Source: Candidatus Sulfotelmatobacter sp.
Lineage (GTDB): Bacteria > Acidobacteriota > Terriglobia > Terriglobales > Acidobacteriaceae
Direction of reading: 5' to 3'
Length of the DNA stretch: 38,399 bases
Assembly: GCA_030040965.1 (NCBI GenBank)
Contig: JASHOT010000215.1
Location: 1 to 38,399, forward strand
This document shows positions 18,179-35,170 of this stretch, piece after piece (positions within the stretch are counted from its first letter, which is position 1; each line of letters opens with the position of its first letter). The notes under the pieces were generated by a model. The model did not search any database and had not been told where the DNA came from. It saw only the letters and a list, made by a program, of their open reading frames with translations. A program made the position numbers and the translations under genes.

Positions 18179-19222
18179 TCAACTGCCAACCGAAACCGGC
18201 GCGGCCTCTGCGACGTTCGCTTCGCGTAAGAACTTAGCGGCCTCTTCCGGCGGCGTCGGGTTGATATAAAAACCCGTGCCCCATTCGAATCCTGCCGTCT
18301 TGGTCAGCTTGGGCATGAATTCAATGTGCCAGTGGTAGTGGTCATTGGTCGGATCCTGCACCGGTGAGGTGTGGATCACGAGATTGTACGGCGGATTGTC
18401 GAGCACCCGGTCGGCGCGTCCCAGTAAATCCTTCAATGCCCGAGCCAGATTCTCGAACATATGCGACGACGAGTTCTCAAATGCCGACTCATGCGTCTTG
18501 GGCATGATCCAGGTCTCGAACGGGAAACGCGGCGCATACGGCGCCAGCGTAAGAAAGTTTTCGTTTTCCGCCACCACCCGCGTGCCGCTATCCATCTCCT
18601 GCCGGATGATGTCGCAAAAAACGCAGCGCTCCTTGTAAAGGAAATATTGCTTGGCTCCTTCCAGTTCCTGGGTCACGTTGATAGGAAGAATGGGCAGCGC
18701 GATTAATTGCGAGTGGGCGTGTTCCAGAGAAGCTCCCGCTGCCTCGCCATGATTCTTAAAAATCAGGATGTACTTGAATCGCCGGTCTTTCTTGAGGTCG
18801 AGAATGCGGTCGCGGAACGTCCACAAAACATCTTCGATTCTTTTGGGCGGAAGCGTGGCGAGGCTAGCCGAATGATCAGGCGTCTCGATAATAACCTCGT
18901 GCGCCCCGATTCCGTTCATGCGATCGAACATTCCTTCGGCTTGCCGGTTCAGATTTCCTTCAATCCCGAGCGCCGGGAATTTGTTCGGCACCACGCGAAC
19001 GGTCCAGCCGGGAGCGTCCCGCTGCGCGGGCGGTCCACCATTCGGATTCGGACGATACGCCTGAATTTCGGGAGGCGTCTTGCTCTCATTGCCATAGCAG
19101 AAGGGACAGAATCCCCCCTTGATTTTCATATTTTCGCGAACAAAATCGGTTGGGCGCTTCGCGCGGTCCGTCGAAATAATCACCCAACGCCCAACAATCG
19201 GATCTTTTCTAAGTTCCGGCAC
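18179..19222 (-). CDS. galT: Galactose-1-phosphate uridylyltransferase
   Basis: A 347-residue HIT-superfamily enzyme of the Leloir pathway, exchanging UMP between UDP-glucose and galactose-1-phosphate. Zinc cysteines C39/C42 (CPFC) and the active-site HAHSQ (168-172, nucleophile H170) are visible. A second CVFC pair and HYHWHIEFMP lie in the C-terminal half. The start is GTG 19222. It lies 40 bp downstream of yraN on the same strand. No galK or galE is in the window, so a general sugar-nucleotide role (UDP or ADP sugar) cannot be excluded. Confidence 0.93.
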   Translation of the reverse strand: MPELRKDPIVGRWVIISTDRAKRPTDFVRENMKIKGGFCPFCYGNESKTPPEIQAYRPNPNGGPPAQRDAPGWTVRVVPNKFPALGIEGNLNRQAEGMFDRMNGIGAHEVIIETPDHSASLATLPPKRIEDVLWTFRDRILDLKKDRRFKYILIFKNHGEAAGASLEHAHSQLIALPILPINVTQELEGAKQYFLYKERCVFCDIIRQEMDSGTRVVAENENFLTLAPYAPRFPFETWIMPKTHESAFENSSSHMFENLARALKDLLGRADRVLDNPPYNLVIHTSPVQDPTNDHYHWHIEFMPKLTKTAGFEWGTGFYINPTPPEEAAKFLREANVAEAAPVSVGS

Positions 19223-19262
19223 CTACTCAGTCCTTTCCATGGATGTGCGCAAACTTCGTATT

Positions 19263-19718
19263 CTACGCCGCCAAATTGGCATTCTGAAACACTTCGATCT
19301 GCGGGCGGGAAGTACGGCGGTCATAGTATACGCTTACTATATCGAAGCGCCACTGGCACGATGGTGGCAAGCGGCGCAGGTACTCGCGCGCCACTTCCGC
19401 GACTTCCCGGCGTTTGTGCCGGTCCACGGCTGCCTCGGGCGTCTTCACATCCTGCGATGTGCGGGTCTTAACTTCAACGAAGCAAAGAACATCGCCGTCC
19501 CATCCGATCAAATCGATTTCTCCCCGCGAGCGAGCAGTGCGATAGTTGCGGGCGACCATGGCATACCCGAGCTTGCGGAGATGAAAGTACGCTTCCTCTT
19601 CGCCCCGCACTCCAACCTGGTGATTCCGCGGACGCTTATCCGCAGGCAGAACTCTAGTCGCGAGATGATCGAGTGAACGAACAACGGCCCGAGTTAGTCG
19701 CCAAGAGAACACTGCCAA
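19263..19718 (-). CDS. YraN/UPF0102 nuclease-like protein
   Basis: 151 residues with the restriction-endonuclease-like core: GEEEAYFHLRKLGY, RNYRTARSRGEIDLIGWDGDVLCFVEVKTR, with catalytic-type E, D and E-V-K. UPF0102 proteins are widespread and their function is unsettled. It starts at TTG 19718, with an unconserved basic N-terminal 30 residues, so the true start may be later. Probably co-transcribed with galT. Confidence 0.88.
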   Translation of the reverse strand: MAVFSWRLTRAVVRSLDHLATRVLPADKRPRNHQVGVRGEEEAYFHLRKLGYAMVARNYRTARSRGEIDLIGWDGDVLCFVEVKTRTSQDVKTPEAAVDRHKRREVAEVAREYLRRLPPSCQWRFDIVSVYYDRRTSRPQIEVFQNANLAA

Positions 19719-19887
19719 GATCGATTGCCTCTGTGTCGCAGTCTAAGTGAGTGCATAGGCCTGCACTTGTGACCAGACTCACTTTTCGCTGCCAATTTTG
19801 CCCGACGAAGTCTCAATCTGGGACAGTAGCGTTAATGGGGGAATGAGTGGGCCCTTTTTTCCTGGGCCACGGTGGAACCAGCTCTCA

Positions 19888-19920
19888 ATAAAAACAAGCC
19901 TTCGGACTGGCCGAAGGCTT
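19888..19920 (-). terminator. Intrinsic terminator on the minus strand
   Basis: Perfect 10-bp stem AAGCCTTCGG/CCGAAGGCTT, five-base loop, then GTTTTTATT on the minus strand. It points toward yraN but ends 170 bp before it. Confidence 0.8.
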
Positions 19921-20100
19921 GAGTCGCTATCCTCCCCCCAAAGAAGGTAGCAACAAAACCTTATATTTCTTAGACTTGCGGAGCGCACCCTCTCGCGCGC
20001 TCCGCAAGTGCCCCACGGTACTCTTTTGACCGTGAAAGTCGCAGCCGTTCTCGCCTTCCAGGCCCAGCTCAACTTTTTTGCCGACAACCTGAAAACGCGT
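19888..20100 (-). ncRNA. Candidate structured RNA or leader ending in an intrinsic terminator
   Basis: Reading the minus strand from about 20100, a perfect 13-bp stem (20009-19997 with 19986-19974, 10-base loop) is followed by a second imperfect stem (GTTGCTA with TAGCGAC, about 19953-19925). Last comes a 10-bp terminator stem with GTTTTTATT (19920-19888). No Rfam family comes to mind. It may be a free small RNA or the attenuated leader of yraN, 170 bp downstream. The 5' end is a guess. Confidence 0.4.
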
Positions 20101-20339
20101 TCAAAATTCTGGAATAAAGCCCGGTAGCAAATCGCACTACTACGTTGTGCCTACTTTCCAACAGAGAGGCGGTATCGTCAATTCACGCCTCCTGCAAACG
20201 AAGTTCACTCAGTAAATCCTTACCAAGCAGGGGGATGCATCGACCTCTCACCTACGCAAAAGTGTTAGTCAGATGGCACGAAACGGCGATTTTGCGCTTT
20301 CGATCTCTTTGCTAGACTTCGGCCAACGACGGGAAGTGC

Positions 20340-21905
20340 ATGCAACCAGCTCAAAAACCTGATGCAGTGATCCGCTTCGGTGTTTTCGAGGCCGACGTAC
20401 GCTCGGGCGAGCTGCGCAAGAACGGAATTAAGGTCAAGGTTCAGGATCTGCCCTTCCGGGCGCTCAAGCTCTTCCTGGACCACCCTCATGAAATCATCAG
20501 CCGCGATCAGTTCCGCCAGGCTTTGTGGCCGGAGGGAGTCTTTGTTGACTTTGACCATGGCATCAGCAGCGCGATCAACCGGCTGCGCGATGCTCTCGGC
20601 GATTCCGCCGAAAACCCCATCTTTATAGAGACGGTCGAGCGGCGTGGCTACCGCTGGATTGCACCCACCCATACGCCCGGACCAGCAACCGTAGCGACGG
20701 CGGGCCCGATGCTGGTAAGGCCGGATGTGGAAAAGCCGGATGTCATAAAGCCGGGTGTGGAAAAACCTGCCGAAACTGCTGCGCACGCTCCGATGGGCTG
20801 GCTGAGATGGTCGCTCGTATTTCCTGCAGCTGCGCTTCTGCTGATTGGCTGGATGTTGTGGCCAGGGCATCATTCCGCACGGGCCGGCAGTCCGCGGCCA
20901 GCAGTTAATAGCGAAAGCCAGGTTCCGCGGCACGCCGCCAACGCCGAAGCGGAGCAGTTCTATCTGCGCGGGCGTTTTTACTGGCAGGAACGCAATCCGG
21001 AAGGTCTGAACAAGGCCGTCGATGCCTTCACCCAGGCCATTGTTCATGATCCCAACTACGCGCCGGCCTATGTGGGCCTCGCGGACTGTTACAACCTTTT
21101 GCGGGAATACACGGTCATGCCGGCCAGTGAGGCTTATCCGCGCGCTCTGGCGGCGGCGCAGAAGGCGGTCGAACTCGACGATCAATCCTCCGACGCACAC
21201 GCTTCTCTGGCCTTCGCTCTTTTTTATGGCAGCTGGGACGCCGCCGGTGCCGAGCGTGAATTCCGCCGCGCCATCGAACTGAACCACAACAACGCCGTGG
21301 CGCATCACTGGTATGCGACCTTCCTCTCGACGAGCGGCCGCCATGCTGAATCGCTGATCGAGATCGAACGAGCCCAATCGCTCGACCCATCCTCGAAAGC
21401 GATTCTCGCCGACAAAGGCGATCTGCTCTGGCTCGCGGGCAGCCGCGATGAAGGCATTGCGGTGCTCAAGCAACTGGAGACGAGCGAGCCGGCATTCATT
21501 TCGCCTCACCGGTATCTGAAGGTCGCCTATTTCTCCAGCGGCGACTACGCCAGCTATCTGCAAGAGTGGAGAAAAGAAGTTGAACTCATGCAGGACAAGT
21601 CCTCTTTACGGTTGGTCGAAGCGGCCGAAAAAGGCTACTCTGCCGGCGGAGTGGAAGGCATGCTGCAGAACCTGCAGTTGCTGCAGAAAAAACTTTATGA
21701 GCAAGGCGCGTTATCGCCGTATCCGCTGGCGCGTACGTGCTCGCTGCTGGGGGACAAGCGGGAAGCGCTGCGCTATCTCAAAGTCGCCTACGATCAGCAC
21801 GACGATAATCTGGTCGGGATGGCGGACGAACCGGACTTTCAGATTCTTCGCGATGAACCTGCCTATAAGGAATTGGCAGCGCGATTCAACTTTCCCGCCC
21901 ACTGA
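20340..21905 (+). CDS. Winged-helix DNA-binding / TPR membrane protein (CadC-like)
   Basis: 521 residues in three parts. Residues 11-108 are an OmpR/CadC-type winged helix (FGVFEADVRSGELRKNG ... ETVERRGYRWIA). A Pro/Lys/Val linker with near-repeats of KPDV/KPGV (127-143) leads to a single membrane helix at 157-174. Residues 190-520 are tetratricopeptide repeats (AEQFYLRGRFYWQERNPEGLNKA, YAPAYVGLADCYN, AEREFRRAIELNHNNAVAHHWYATFL). DNA-binding is cytoplasmic and the TPR domain probably periplasmic, as in ToxR/CadC sensors. Acidobacteria carry many such genes. Target and signal are unknown. Confidence 0.85.
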   Translation: MQPAQKPDAVIRFGVFEADVRSGELRKNGIKVKVQDLPFRALKLFLDHPHEIISRDQFRQALWPEGVFVDFDHGISSAINRLRDALGDSAENPIFIETVERRGYRWIAPTHTPGPATVATAGPMLVRPDVEKPDVIKPGVEKPAETAAHAPMGWLRWSLVFPAAALLLIGWMLWPGHHSARAGSPRPAVNSESQVPRHAANAEAEQFYLRGRFYWQERNPEGLNKAVDAFTQAIVHDPNYAPAYVGLADCYNLLREYTVMPASEAYPRALAAAQKAVELDDQSSDAHASLAFALFYGSWDAAGAEREFRRAIELNHNNAVAHHWYATFLSTSGRHAESLIEIERAQSLDPSSKAILADKGDLLWLAGSRDEGIAVLKQLETSEPAFISPHRYLKVAYFSSGDYASYLQEWRKEVELMQDKSSLRLVEAAEKGYSAGGVEGMLQNLQLLQKKLYEQGALSPYPLARTCSLLGDKREALRYLKVAYDQHDDNLVGMADEPDFQILRDEPAYKELAARFNFPAH

Positions 21906-32586: not shown

Positions 32587-33108
32587 GTGTCGAAGACTGC
32601 TGCCGCGGTCCTGGGGTTCATTGTTTTTCTTCTTTTTTCTATTCCGATGTCGGCACAATTCAGCGCCTTGCTTCCCAACGGAAACGTCTACGCCGGAGTC
32701 TCCTACGGTCATCTCACCGATGTGATCAATAAACAGCCATATCACGGCTTTGATGGCTCTCTCGAAGCCTTCCCCTTCGCTCGCCTCCCCCACCTCGGAG
32801 CCGTGCTCGACGGCAGCGGTTTCTACCGCGCCGGCGTCACGCAATACGTTGGCGTCGGCGGCTTTCGTCTCTCCAATAATTACGGCAACTGGCGGCCGTT
32901 CGTGCAGGCCATGGCTGGAATTCGCCATGTGACTTCTTACGGTTTTGTCTACAACCCCCTGGTCCTCGACTTTGGCGGCGGCGCCGACTACAAGCTCCCC
33001 ATCAAGAATTTCTCCTGGCGCCTGCAGGGCGACTACCTTCACGGGCATTACTCCGCCATCTCACAAAACGATTACAAGGTCTCCACCGGCCCGGTGTGGC
33101 GTTTCTGA
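32587..33108 (+). CDS. Small outer-membrane beta-barrel protein
   Basis: 173 residues with a signal peptide (cleavage probably after MSA, near residue 24). The remainder shows alternating hydrophobic strands with aromatic ends and finishes in a Phe (VSTGPVWRF), the usual last-strand signature. GTG 32587 follows GGGGAGG. It shares the overall plan (RLQGDYLHG, VSTGPVWRF) with the three genes downstream but is more divergent and lacks their cysteine-bearing segment. Confidence 0.75.
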   Translation: MSKTAAAVLGFIVFLLFSIPMSAQFSALLPNGNVYAGVSYGHLTDVINKQPYHGFDGSLEAFPFARLPHLGAVLDGSGFYRAGVTQYVGVGGFRLSNNYGNWRPFVQAMAGIRHVTSYGFVYNPLVLDFGGGADYKLPIKNFSWRLQGDYLHGHYSAISQNDYKVSTGPVWRF

Positions 33109-33302
33109 TTCTGTTTCGTCAACCCTGAGCCACAGTCGTTTGCAGCCATTGACGGCCGCTTCGATGCGCTTGGTGTGCCCATAATCGCCCACAGCCCATT
33201 TTGGCCCTCCTTCATCTAACAACTTCCTGCATCGATTCGGGTTAACCCATAGTGCCCCTTCAGTTTTCCTGGAATGTCGATGCGGAAGCAGAAAGGAGCT
33301 TC

Positions 33303-33860
33303 ATGCGAAAGTCGTTATTTGTTGTAATCGTTCTCATCGTATTCGCTTCGTTTGCGGCGGCTCAGGTACCCACGTCCGGCAACGTATTCTTCGGATATTC
33401 CTACTTCAACACCAATGTGCCGGGAGCCAACCGCATCAACACCAATGGTTGGGAGGCTTCGTTCGAAGGCAAAATCGTGCCGTTCCTCGGCATGGTTGCC
33501 GACTTCGACAGCCATTACGGGACTGCAAATTTTCCAGCGGTCGACTGCCCCGGCGTCGGCTGTCCCCTCCCACCCTCTAGCGCGAACGTCTCGGCGCACA
33601 ATTTCCTGTTCGGACCGCGCGTCTCCGTTCCAGCCGGCAAATTTCGTCCTTTCGGGGAATTCCTGATCGGCGCCGGCCATATCAATGCCGGTGCGGCCGG
33701 CTCTGATACTTCTTTCGCCACCGCCATCGGCGGTGGCCTCGACTACCGCATCGTTCGTCCTGTTGCCTGGCGATTCCAGGGCGACTACATCCACACCAAT
33801 CTTTTCGGAACTGGAGAAAACAATGTGCGCCTGTCGACGGGTATCGTTTTTCGTTTTTAA
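33303..33860 (+). CDS. Outer-membrane beta-barrel protein, tandem copy 1
   Basis: 185 residues, signal peptide ending ...FAAA. Conserved blocks: QVPTSGNVFFGYSYFNTN, GWEASFEGKIVPFLGMVADFD, LFGPRVSVPAGKFRPFGEFLIG and the C-terminal WRFQGDYIHTNLFGTGENNV to F. The segment between the second and third blocks carries two cysteines (VDCPGVGCP). ATG 33303 follows AAAGGAG. First of three tandem paralogues; the cluster may be co-transcribed. Confidence 0.8.
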   Translation: MRKSLFVVIVLIVFASFAAAQVPTSGNVFFGYSYFNTNVPGANRINTNGWEASFEGKIVPFLGMVADFDSHYGTANFPAVDCPGVGCPLPPSSANVSAHNFLFGPRVSVPAGKFRPFGEFLIGAGHINAGAAGSDTSFATAIGGGLDYRIVRPVAWRFQGDYIHTNLFGTGENNVRLSTGIVFRF

Positions 33861-33897
33861 AACGGGCCCCGATCCTGCACCGAGAAGAAAGGTCCAC

Positions 33898-34512
33898 GTG
33901 CATCGAACCAATATGCATCGAATTGTCCTGCTGCTCTCGCTGTTGCTGGTGCTTGCCGCGCTGGCCTCCGCTCAGGTTCCGACATCCGGCAATGTCTTTT
34001 TCGGATACTCCTACTACAACACCAATCTGTCCGGCGCGAATGAGTGTTGTGCTCTCCTCAATGATCGCCAGAACACGAACGGCTTCGAGGCTTCGTTCGA
34101 AGGCAAAATCGTGCCGTCTCTCGGCATTGTCGCCGACTTCGATGGCCACTATGGCTCGCAGAGCGTCATTTTTCCCGTGTGTCCGGTGGTGGGTTGCGTT
34201 CCTCAGCCTTGCCCAAACTGCGTAGTTCCTAACGGCGATTTCTCGGAACACAACTTTTTGTTCGGGCCGCGCGTTTCCTTTCCAGCTGGCAGATTTCGGC
34301 CCTTCGGTGAATTCCTGGTCGGCGTAGCCCACGCGAACGCCAACGGCATTGGAACCGACAACTCTTTCGCGACGGCCGTCGGCGGCGGCATCGATTACCG
34401 CATCATTCGTCCCATCGCGTGGCGCCTCCAGGGCGACTACGTTCATACGAGTTTGTTTGGAGGACCGCAGAATAACGTGCGCATCTCCACCGGCATCGTT
34501 CTTCGTTTCTGA
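33898..34512 (+). CDS. Outer-membrane beta-barrel protein, tandem copy 2
   Basis: 204 residues with the same blocks as its neighbours. The start is GTG 33898, with GAAAGG five bases upstream; its N-terminus (VHRTNMHRIVLL) aligns with MHRNNIGRTILL of copy 3, whereas ATG 33913 would remove this match. It has the most cysteines: ECC near residue 47 and four in VCPVVGCVPQPCPNC (about 100-115). The C-terminus is the standard strand ending in LRF. Confidence 0.8.
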   Translation: MHRTNMHRIVLLLSLLLVLAALASAQVPTSGNVFFGYSYYNTNLSGANECCALLNDRQNTNGFEASFEGKIVPSLGIVADFDGHYGSQSVIFPVCPVVGCVPQPCPNCVVPNGDFSEHNFLFGPRVSFPAGRFRPFGEFLVGVAHANANGIGTDNSFATAVGGGIDYRIIRPIAWRLQGDYVHTSLFGGPQNNVRISTGIVLRF

Positions 34513-34546
34513 CTCGTGCTGTTCGTGCATTGATAGGAGCGCAAAC

Positions 34547-35170
34547 ATGCATCGAAACAACATAGGTAGAACGATCCTGCTGGCCTCGCTGTTGCTTGCG
34601 CTGACAGCCACAGGATGGGCGCAGGTGCCCAGTTCCGGAAACGTCTTTTTCGGATACTCGTATTTCAACACCAACCTGTTCGGGAATCGCACCAGCGCGA
34701 ACGGCTGGGAAGCCTCATTCGAAGGCAAGATCGTTCCGTTTCTTGGGATGGTCGCCGACTTTGACGGCCACTACTCCGGAACAGTTAATTTTCCGGAATC
34801 GGACTGTTCCGGAATCGCCTGTCCGGTCGGACCTGCTAACGGCGGGATCCCTCAACCCGGCGGCTATCTCAGCGCCAATATGTTGGAATACGACTTTCTG
34901 TTCGGCCCGCGCGTATCCATTCCGGCCGGCAGATTTCGTCCGTTCGGCGAATTCCTCATCGGCGGCGCCCACATGAATGCCAAAGCCACCGGCACTAATT
35001 CGTCCTTCGGCACCGACAACTCCTTCGCCACAGCCGTCGGCGGCGGCTTCGATTACAGAATCATTCGTCCCATCGCCTGGCGATTGCAGGGCGACTACAT
35101 CCACACCAACCTTTTCGGAACCGGAGAAAATGACGTTCGCATCTCGACCGGCATTGTTCTCCGCTTCTGA
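34547..35170 (+). CDS. Outer-membrane beta-barrel protein, tandem copy 3
   Basis: 207 residues; ATG 34547 follows TAGGAG seven bases upstream, the clearest ribosome-binding site of the set. Signal peptide with cleavage after WA (about residue 25). The variable segment is longest here (SDCSGIACPVGP then a Gly/Pro-rich stretch), with two cysteines. The closing blocks are nearly the same as in copy 2. Confidence 0.8.
   Translation: MHRNNIGRTILLASLLLALTATGWAQVPSSGNVFFGYSYFNTNLFGNRTSANGWEASFEGKIVPFLGMVADFDGHYSGTVNFPESDCSGIACPVGPANGGIPQPGGYLSANMLEYDFLFGPRVSIPAGRFRPFGEFLIGGAHMNAKATGTNSSFGTDNSFATAVGGGFDYRIIRPIAWRLQGDYIHTNLFGTGENDVRISTGIVLRF

Follow-up and report, generated by a model that had tools for sequence, protein, structure and literature searches.

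What is encoded on the minus strand of the 621-bp gap that separates yraN (start at 19718, minus strand) from a plus-strand regulator gene (start at 20340)? The gap lies in the window, i.e., the whole stretch of 38,399 nucleotides analyzed here, which forms contig 42 in a draft genome of 5.87 Mb from Candidatus Sulfotelmatobacter sp. A preliminary description had pointed to three structures on this strand (a 13-bp stem, a second stem and a terminator), in a gap of about 620 bp and with the terminator 170 bp before yraN. All three structures are present, and the terminator lies 176 bp from the start of yraN, close to the distance first given. The terminator itself is borne out, but its stem has 11 pairs and not 10. 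Likewise, the structures do lie in the interval originally delimited (19888-20100), whereas the predicted start is at about 20146 and the promoter block reaches 20208. The RNA and the gene that follows it comprise these features:

19263-19718, minus strand: yraN (UPF0102), the next gene downstream of the RNA
19890-20146, minus strand: predicted small RNA transcript of about 257 nt, with the 5' end placed from a -10-like element and the 3' end from the terminator
19890-19894, minus strand: terminator U tract (5 U), directly after the terminator stem
19895-19921, minus strand: intrinsic terminator stem-loop of 11 pairs, two of them kept by two-sided changes in relatives
19923-19954, minus strand: hairpin 2, with one bulged A, directly before the terminator
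19955-19958, minus strand: short U-run immediately preceding hairpin 2
19974-20009, minus strand: hairpin 1, 13 Watson-Crick pairs followed by a G-U and a C-G pair, loop GAGAGG
20013-20035, minus strand: small 5' hairpin, with a clear counterpart only in locus L008 (by eye)

Taken as a whole, the locus is likely to be an independent gene for a regulatory RNA, which the neighboring regulator probably switches. That it is a stand-alone small RNA gene is, from its sequence, very likely: this part of the reading is well supported because the locus has a conserved core with structure-preserving changes, a promoter-like block, a terminator, and no conserved ORF. Transcription of the minus strand would start near 20146, from a promoter of the form TTGACG-17/18-NARAGT, and would end at the intrinsic terminator (19895-19921), so that hairpin 2 and the terminator would make up the stable 3' module of the RNA.

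Distribution of the RNA in the genus and the order

The RNA is carried by 6 of the 45 genomes of the genus, in one copy each, and the six loci compared throughout this work are those of the window, L008, L011, L012, L014, and L017. The search did not detect it in the remaining 39 genomes; many genomes of the genus are incomplete drafts, and absence is uncertain for individual members of the 39. Of the 20 genomes with a completeness of 90% or more and a contamination of no more than 5%, three are carriers; each of the other three carriers (G004, G017, and G058) exceeds 5% contamination. All 45 genomes were searched whole with a covariance model, R1, which describes hairpin 2 and the terminator and for which only the five relatives, and not the window, were used. 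With this model the window obtains 70.8 bits (E = 7.5e-19) and the six carriers 70.8-86.4 bits, the best other place in the genus reaching 30.6 bits (E ≤ 0.5). Some match at E ≤ 0.5 occurs in 27 of the 45 genomes, and all places outside the family score at most 30.6 bits.

The region upstream of yraN gives the same count. We found yraN in 42 of the 45 genomes and fetched 30 loci (12 of the 42 genomes are not among them), of which 29 have upstream DNA. L010 has none and stands outside these 29 regions; L027 has only 469 nt, and the other loci up to 1500 nt. A matching terminator on the same strand, 163-252 nt before the yraN match, is present in 6 of the 29. Unrelated terminator-like stems were seen on the strand of the RNA in L027 and L028, and on the opposite strand in L013, L027, and L036.

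At the level of the order, we searched 397 genomes, including five of the six carriers, with stricter filters. Matches at E ≤ 0.001 were obtained in 32 of them, namely the 5 carriers and 27 others at 24.8-30.6 bits. The latter are probably generic terminators. A strict pattern search of the GTDB collection, which would miss variants like L008, returned 4 contigs and nothing beyond the known carriers. As far as searched, the RNA thus appears confined to part of one genus. Hairpin 1 was also considered as a dispersed REP-like repeat, a possibility that we rejected: it occurs at one place in the genome of the window at up to 3 mismatches.

The carriers do not form one clade in the YraN tree. Their distribution implies 4 changes on the best tree (3-4 in the bootstrap), a count as low being found in 18 of 500 shuffles, and the support is weak. 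As the carriers are not one clade on this tree, either losses or transfer must be assumed. A single origin of the locus followed by losses may underlie this distribution.

Folding, coding potential, and conservation

The segment 19888-20035 (minus strand) folds at -75.6 kcal/mol, compared with a mean of -46.4 for shuffled sequences (z = -7.6; none of 200 shuffles was as good). The predicted transcripts of all six loci also fold better than their shuffles, with z-scores between -2.3 and -4.9; one of 200 shuffles was as good for L014 and none for the other five loci. A simple terminator scan of 18500-21500 reported 2 sites, against 4.0 in shuffled sequences, and a terminator-like site alone is therefore not beyond chance. 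Of the two sites, the terminator of the RNA has much the longer stem (11 versus 5 pairs), and it is conserved in relatives.

The preliminary description had recognized neither a known riboswitch or 6S/tmRNA consensus nor a convincing protein frame, and had proposed a search against Rfam. In this search no family reaches its gathering score in the gap, and no 6S RNA is found there; over the whole window, Rfam 15 at the gathering threshold gives only a tRNA, outside the gap. Matches in the gap at E ≤ 10 are to microRNA, Giardia snoRNA, and lncRNA families, far below the cut-offs, and were discarded as chance. The ORFs of at least 15 codons in the six predicted transcripts share no start, length, or stop, in agreement with the initial impression. 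Two observations had been named in advance as speaking against an RNA, namely stems that are not conserved in relatives and a conserved protein frame in the interval: hairpin 2 and the terminator are conserved in the six loci, and no frame is conserved across them. The RNA thus looks like a non-coding one that matches no catalogued family and belongs to a kind of RNA gene that is already known.

The covariation analysis proposed at the outset, run on the homologous gaps, revealed structure-preserving changes, within the limited power that six related sequences give to such a test. We used two alignments: A3, made with MAFFT from the five relatives, and A4, fitted to the model, with six rows including the window. 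In A3, 90.4% of 115 cells pair (a value reached by 9 of 500 shuffles), the covariation score is 0.274 (5 of 500), and 6 cells are changed on both sides (3 of 500). In A4, 92.0% of 138 cells pair, and two-sided changes affect 8 cells, compared with a shuffled mean of 2.5 (0 of 500 shuffles). Its covariation score of 0.281 exceeds that of the shuffles (0.197, sd 0.021; 0 of 500), and structures slid along the same alignment give at most 0.130. The number of pairs with two-sided changes in A4 (3; 97 of 500 shuffles) and that of further pair types (12; 435 of 500) are within the range of the shuffles. All two-sided changes sit in three base pairs, two in the terminator helix and one in hairpin 2.

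Conservation is unevenly spread along the transcript. The 5' half is poorly conserved, and predicted lengths range from 105 to 271 nt among the six loci; the stem of hairpin 1 is near-identical in four of them, while L014 and L017 are predicted to have a different short 5' hairpin. As a reference we used the 4-fold synonymous sites of the regulator gene, which are 36-48% identical between clades (61% and 85% in the close pairs L011/L012 and L014/L017, respectively). Between clades, the RNA core (hairpin 2 and terminator, 72 columns of A4) is 65-84% identical, hairpin 2 (the first 37 columns of A4) 65-97%, and the 33-bp promoter block described below 85-97%. Together with the preceding U-run, hairpin 2 of the window is 97% identical to those of L014 and L017 and 74-79% to the other three, the 97% standing against 41-45% at synonymous sites in the comparison of the window with L014 and L017. 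The excess of identity in the core and the promoter block over synonymous sites indicates, to judge from these alignments, that the sequence of the RNA as well as its structure is under selection.

A promoter-like block beside a divergent regulator gene

Upstream of the RNA, the gap contains a block that is near-invariant across the six loci, followed on the far side by the regulator gene:

20153-20158, minus strand: -10-like element GAAAGT; all six loci have NARAGT, with a spacing of 17 or 18 bp to TTGACG
20176-20181, minus strand: -35-like element TTGACG, at the end of the 33-bp block
20176-20208, minus strand: near-invariant 33-bp block, candidate operator, containing the direct repeat and the -35 element
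20202-20208 and 20180-20186, minus strand: direct repeat GTGAAYT-N15-GTGAAYT, 22-bp period, in all six loci
20313-20318, plus strand: -10-like element TAGACT, assigned to the regulator gene and shared by most of the six loci (alignment, by eye)
20340-21905, plus strand: divergent regulator gene; N-terminal Trans_reg_C winged helix, hydrophobic segment, C-terminal TPR repeats

Across the six loci, the block differs from its version in L014 at 0-3 of 33 positions. TTGACG is followed in every case by 17-18 variable bases and then by GAAAGT, CAAAGT, or GAGAGT. The -10-like element shares only 3 of 6 positions with TATAAT; a promoter scan did not list it (1 site found, versus 1.0 in shuffles). The direct repeat abuts the -35 element in all six loci, and its period of 22 bp corresponds to two helical turns. 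Searched genome-wide, the direct-repeat pattern has 7 matches in the six carriers (one in each of five genomes and two in the sixth), 6 of them at the RNA locus; the reversed control has none.

The product of the divergent gene matches Pfam Trans_reg_C and TPR over the cut-offs and has one hydrophobic segment (residues ~155-176, Kyte-Doolittle mean 1.71). It is probably a one-component, membrane-anchored winged-helix/TPR protein. The order of its parts, with Trans_reg_C at the N-terminus, one hydrophobic segment, and TPR at the C-terminus, resembles that of ToxR/CadC/HilA-type regulators, but over the whole protein its similarity to the HilA/EilA and CadC models is weak, with scores far below the cut-offs. 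Direct repeats beside a -35 element suit winged helices of the PhoB/ToxR type, and control by the divergent regulator is for this reason naturally inferred. We consider such control of the RNA probable. The winged helix would most likely bind the GTGAAYT repeat that touches the -35 element, and the regulator would switch the RNA in response to a cue.

The regulator and the RNA are closely linked. The gene is divergent beside the RNA in all six RNA loci and in none of the 23 other yraN loci with upstream DNA. Its ortholog (66-71% identity) occurs in the same 6 of 45 genomes as the RNA and adjoins it; the best further copy, among the matches listed at E ≤ 1e-80, has 58% identity. In G001, the interval lacks both RNA and regulator, and gabT and yraN are neighbors, with 205 bp between the matches; in G012 and G019, other DNA fills the interval (2.6 and 1.9 kb, respectively), and the regulator is missing there too. 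These three intervals show that, at this locus, regulator and RNA are present or absent together. The word orphan, under which the RNA was first described, is therefore not apt, as a divergent winged-helix/TPR regulator adjoins it in all six carriers.

Beyond the six orthologs, the matches listed at E ≤ 1e-80 comprise 17 rows, from which we examined 7 paralogs; two partial matches (L080 and L082) were fetched and left out of the comparison. In these loci (L077, L078, L079, L081, L089, L090, and L091), paralogous winged-helix/TPR regulators are divergent from secreted-looking repeat proteins. The divergent frames have GloVer repeats in L077 and L079 and FG-GAP repeats in L091 according to profile searches, the rest being judged from translations. 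The pattern TTGAC-17/18-NANAGT, shared by all six RNA loci, is present in the divergent region of four of the seven (it is absent in L081, L090, and L091), the difference being that the partner there is a protein frame and here an RNA. We put forward only tentatively, and with some doubt, that in one lineage, under a comparable promoter layout, the RNA replaces the secreted-looking partner, in which case an envelope signal might be read out directly, perhaps solely, as RNA, with hairpin 2 as the effector.

Relation to yraN and alternative explanations

Between the RNA terminator and yraN lies one further conserved feature:

19768-19783, strand not applicable: CRP-like palindrome with 1 mismatch, in the separate control region of yraN, past the RNA terminator

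A TGTGA-N6-TCACA palindrome with at most one mismatch is found in the 220 nt upstream of yraN in 16 of 29 loci, compared with 1% of shuffles, and it lies between terminator and yraN in all six RNA loci. By eye, a TTCCCGnTTnGGGAA-like repeat precedes it and a -10-like element accompanies it in many yraN loci, with and without the RNA; in G001, which lacks the RNA, the yraN control elements are in place. It is probable that yraN is a transcription unit separate from the RNA. Independently of the RNA, a CRP/FNR-like palindrome in 19718-19850 and in the homologous regions of L008-L036 is surprisingly elaborate control for a gene of the UPF0102 type.

These observations bear on the second reading offered in the preliminary description, a transcription-attenuating leader, in which the RNA would be the 5' part of a yraN-galT transcript and the terminator an attenuator. 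The RNA is indeed on the strand of yraN with its terminator 176 bp upstream, and strong hairpins ahead of a terminator are typical of attenuators. However, yraN has a conserved control region past the terminator, which is seen in relatives without the RNA as well, and in 23 of 29 loci there is no such RNA ahead of yraN, so that a leader is not supported and we consider it improbable, a competing antiterminator having been considered through MFE folding alone. The other reading offered then, a small RNA gene, is the better supported of the two. The terminator could also act in cis as an insulator of yraN against read-through from the side of the regulator and gabT, the hairpins having no other role. 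The fact that gabT, the RNA, and yraN are on one strand fits this view, as does the arrangement in G001, where gabT is followed by a stem with a U-rich tail and then, immediately, by the control region of yraN (by eye). Yet an insulator needs neither a promoter block of its own nor a hairpin 2 kept at 97% identity between the window and L014/L017, which makes this explanation unlikely.

That the transcript encodes a short peptide, as a dual-function RNA or a small-protein gene, seems very improbable. A reading RS(A/V)REGALR across hairpin 1 is common to four loci, and a GGAGG-N6-TTG block can be read as a start site; this block, however, is upstream of the predicted start of transcription. The frames agree in neither start nor stop, and within each of the close pairs L014/L017 and L011/L012 they are displaced by insertions or deletions whose lengths are not divisible by three (by eye). 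Hairpin 1 in its shared form is missing from two loci. Least of all do we expect an RNA that sequesters proteins, either a sponge of CsrA/RsmA or a second 6S RNA. Hairpin 2 does contain a GGA, within GGGGAGGAU, but CsrA was found in none of the six carrier genomes by a search that was positive in 3 of 14 control genomes. As for 6S RNA, which has the shape of a rod, it is encoded elsewhere in all six carriers (RF00013) with no 6S match at the gap, and the folds predicted here are rows of hairpins. One carrier has two 6S matches of equal score (G007:C45 and G007:C67), the second at a contig end and possibly an assembly duplicate.

Mode of action and comparison with known systems

A stand-alone RNA gene would act in trans, most likely by pairing with mRNAs encoded elsewhere, and we lean slightly towards base pairing as its mode of action. 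We found no consistent excess over shuffles, across the six loci, in the pairing between the RNA's 3' part and the start regions of the two neighboring genes: the fraction of 300 shuffles at least as good ranges between 0.04 and 0.96 for the regulator and between 0.22 and 0.82 for yraN, the lowest value (0.04) being that of L014 and the same gene giving 0.96 in L008. Within the RNA, the loop GAGAGG could pair with the CCUYC strand of hairpin 2 (by eye).

Hfq is encoded in all six carriers, with a strong match of about 95 bits. Each carrier also has two weak Hfq-like matches, at 28.0-33.7 bits (cut-off 27). The terminator U runs are 4-5 long in the six loci as scanned, and 6 in L011 and L012 if the last paired U is counted. 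Terminators of Hfq-binding small RNAs have 7 or more T, according to excerpts of a published analysis (PMC5558911). Although Hfq is encoded, the U tails of 4-6 fall short of this length, and the RNA may or may not depend on Hfq.

In OxyR-OxyS and GcvA-GcvB, the gene of a LysR-type regulator is divergent from the small RNA that it controls. The locus studied here has the same arrangement of divergent regulator and small RNA; it differs in the type of regulator and in the lack of an Rfam match. Another parallel is SgrR-SgrS, whose highly conserved intergenic region, according to one study (PMC4021124), holds the promoter of the small RNA; SgrS itself has an intrinsic terminator and an additional stem-loop ahead of it. 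The same study describes SgrS as poorly conserved overall except for a single near-invariant segment close to its 3' end (PMC4021124). Our locus shares with this system a conserved, promoter-like intergenic block, the terminator with a stem-loop just upstream, low conservation overall with a conserved 3' stretch, and the adjacent, divergent regulator, a linkage conserved in all six RNA loci. In contrast, there is no Rfam match and no SgrT-like conserved ORF, the U tail is of 4-6 and not 7 or more, and the regulator is a ToxR/CadC-like winged-helix/TPR protein.

Two structured RNAs of Acidobacteria, Acido-1 and Acido-Lenti-1 (RF01686 and RF01687), figure in the excerpts of Weinberg et al. 2010 (PMC2864571), and the gap matches neither of them, even at E ≤ 10. 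Apart from these motifs (PMC2864571), small RNAs of Acidobacteriota seem little described, and no open-licence paper listed in our searches on Acidobacteria visibly deals with one, whether of this genus or of the phylum. If our reading is right, the phylum would gain a small RNA for which candidates for the promoter, the regulator, and the operator can be named. Transmembrane one-component regulators are somewhat enriched in Acidobacteriae, according to excerpts of a survey (PMC10269533); the locus, if correctly read, suggests that such regulators can have an RNA as their neighboring output.

Other features of the window

Two other regions of the window deserve mention. Near the contig end, at 85-1427, a fragment of a DDE_Tnp_1_4 transposase (the first part of the profile) and a C-terminal fragment of a phage integrase lie beside tRNA-Val(gac), and are probably the remains of an element integrated at the tRNA. 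At 32587-35170, we observed related small proteins in tandem, two without a match and two with sub-threshold matches to outer-membrane beta-barrels, which probably form a local duplication array.
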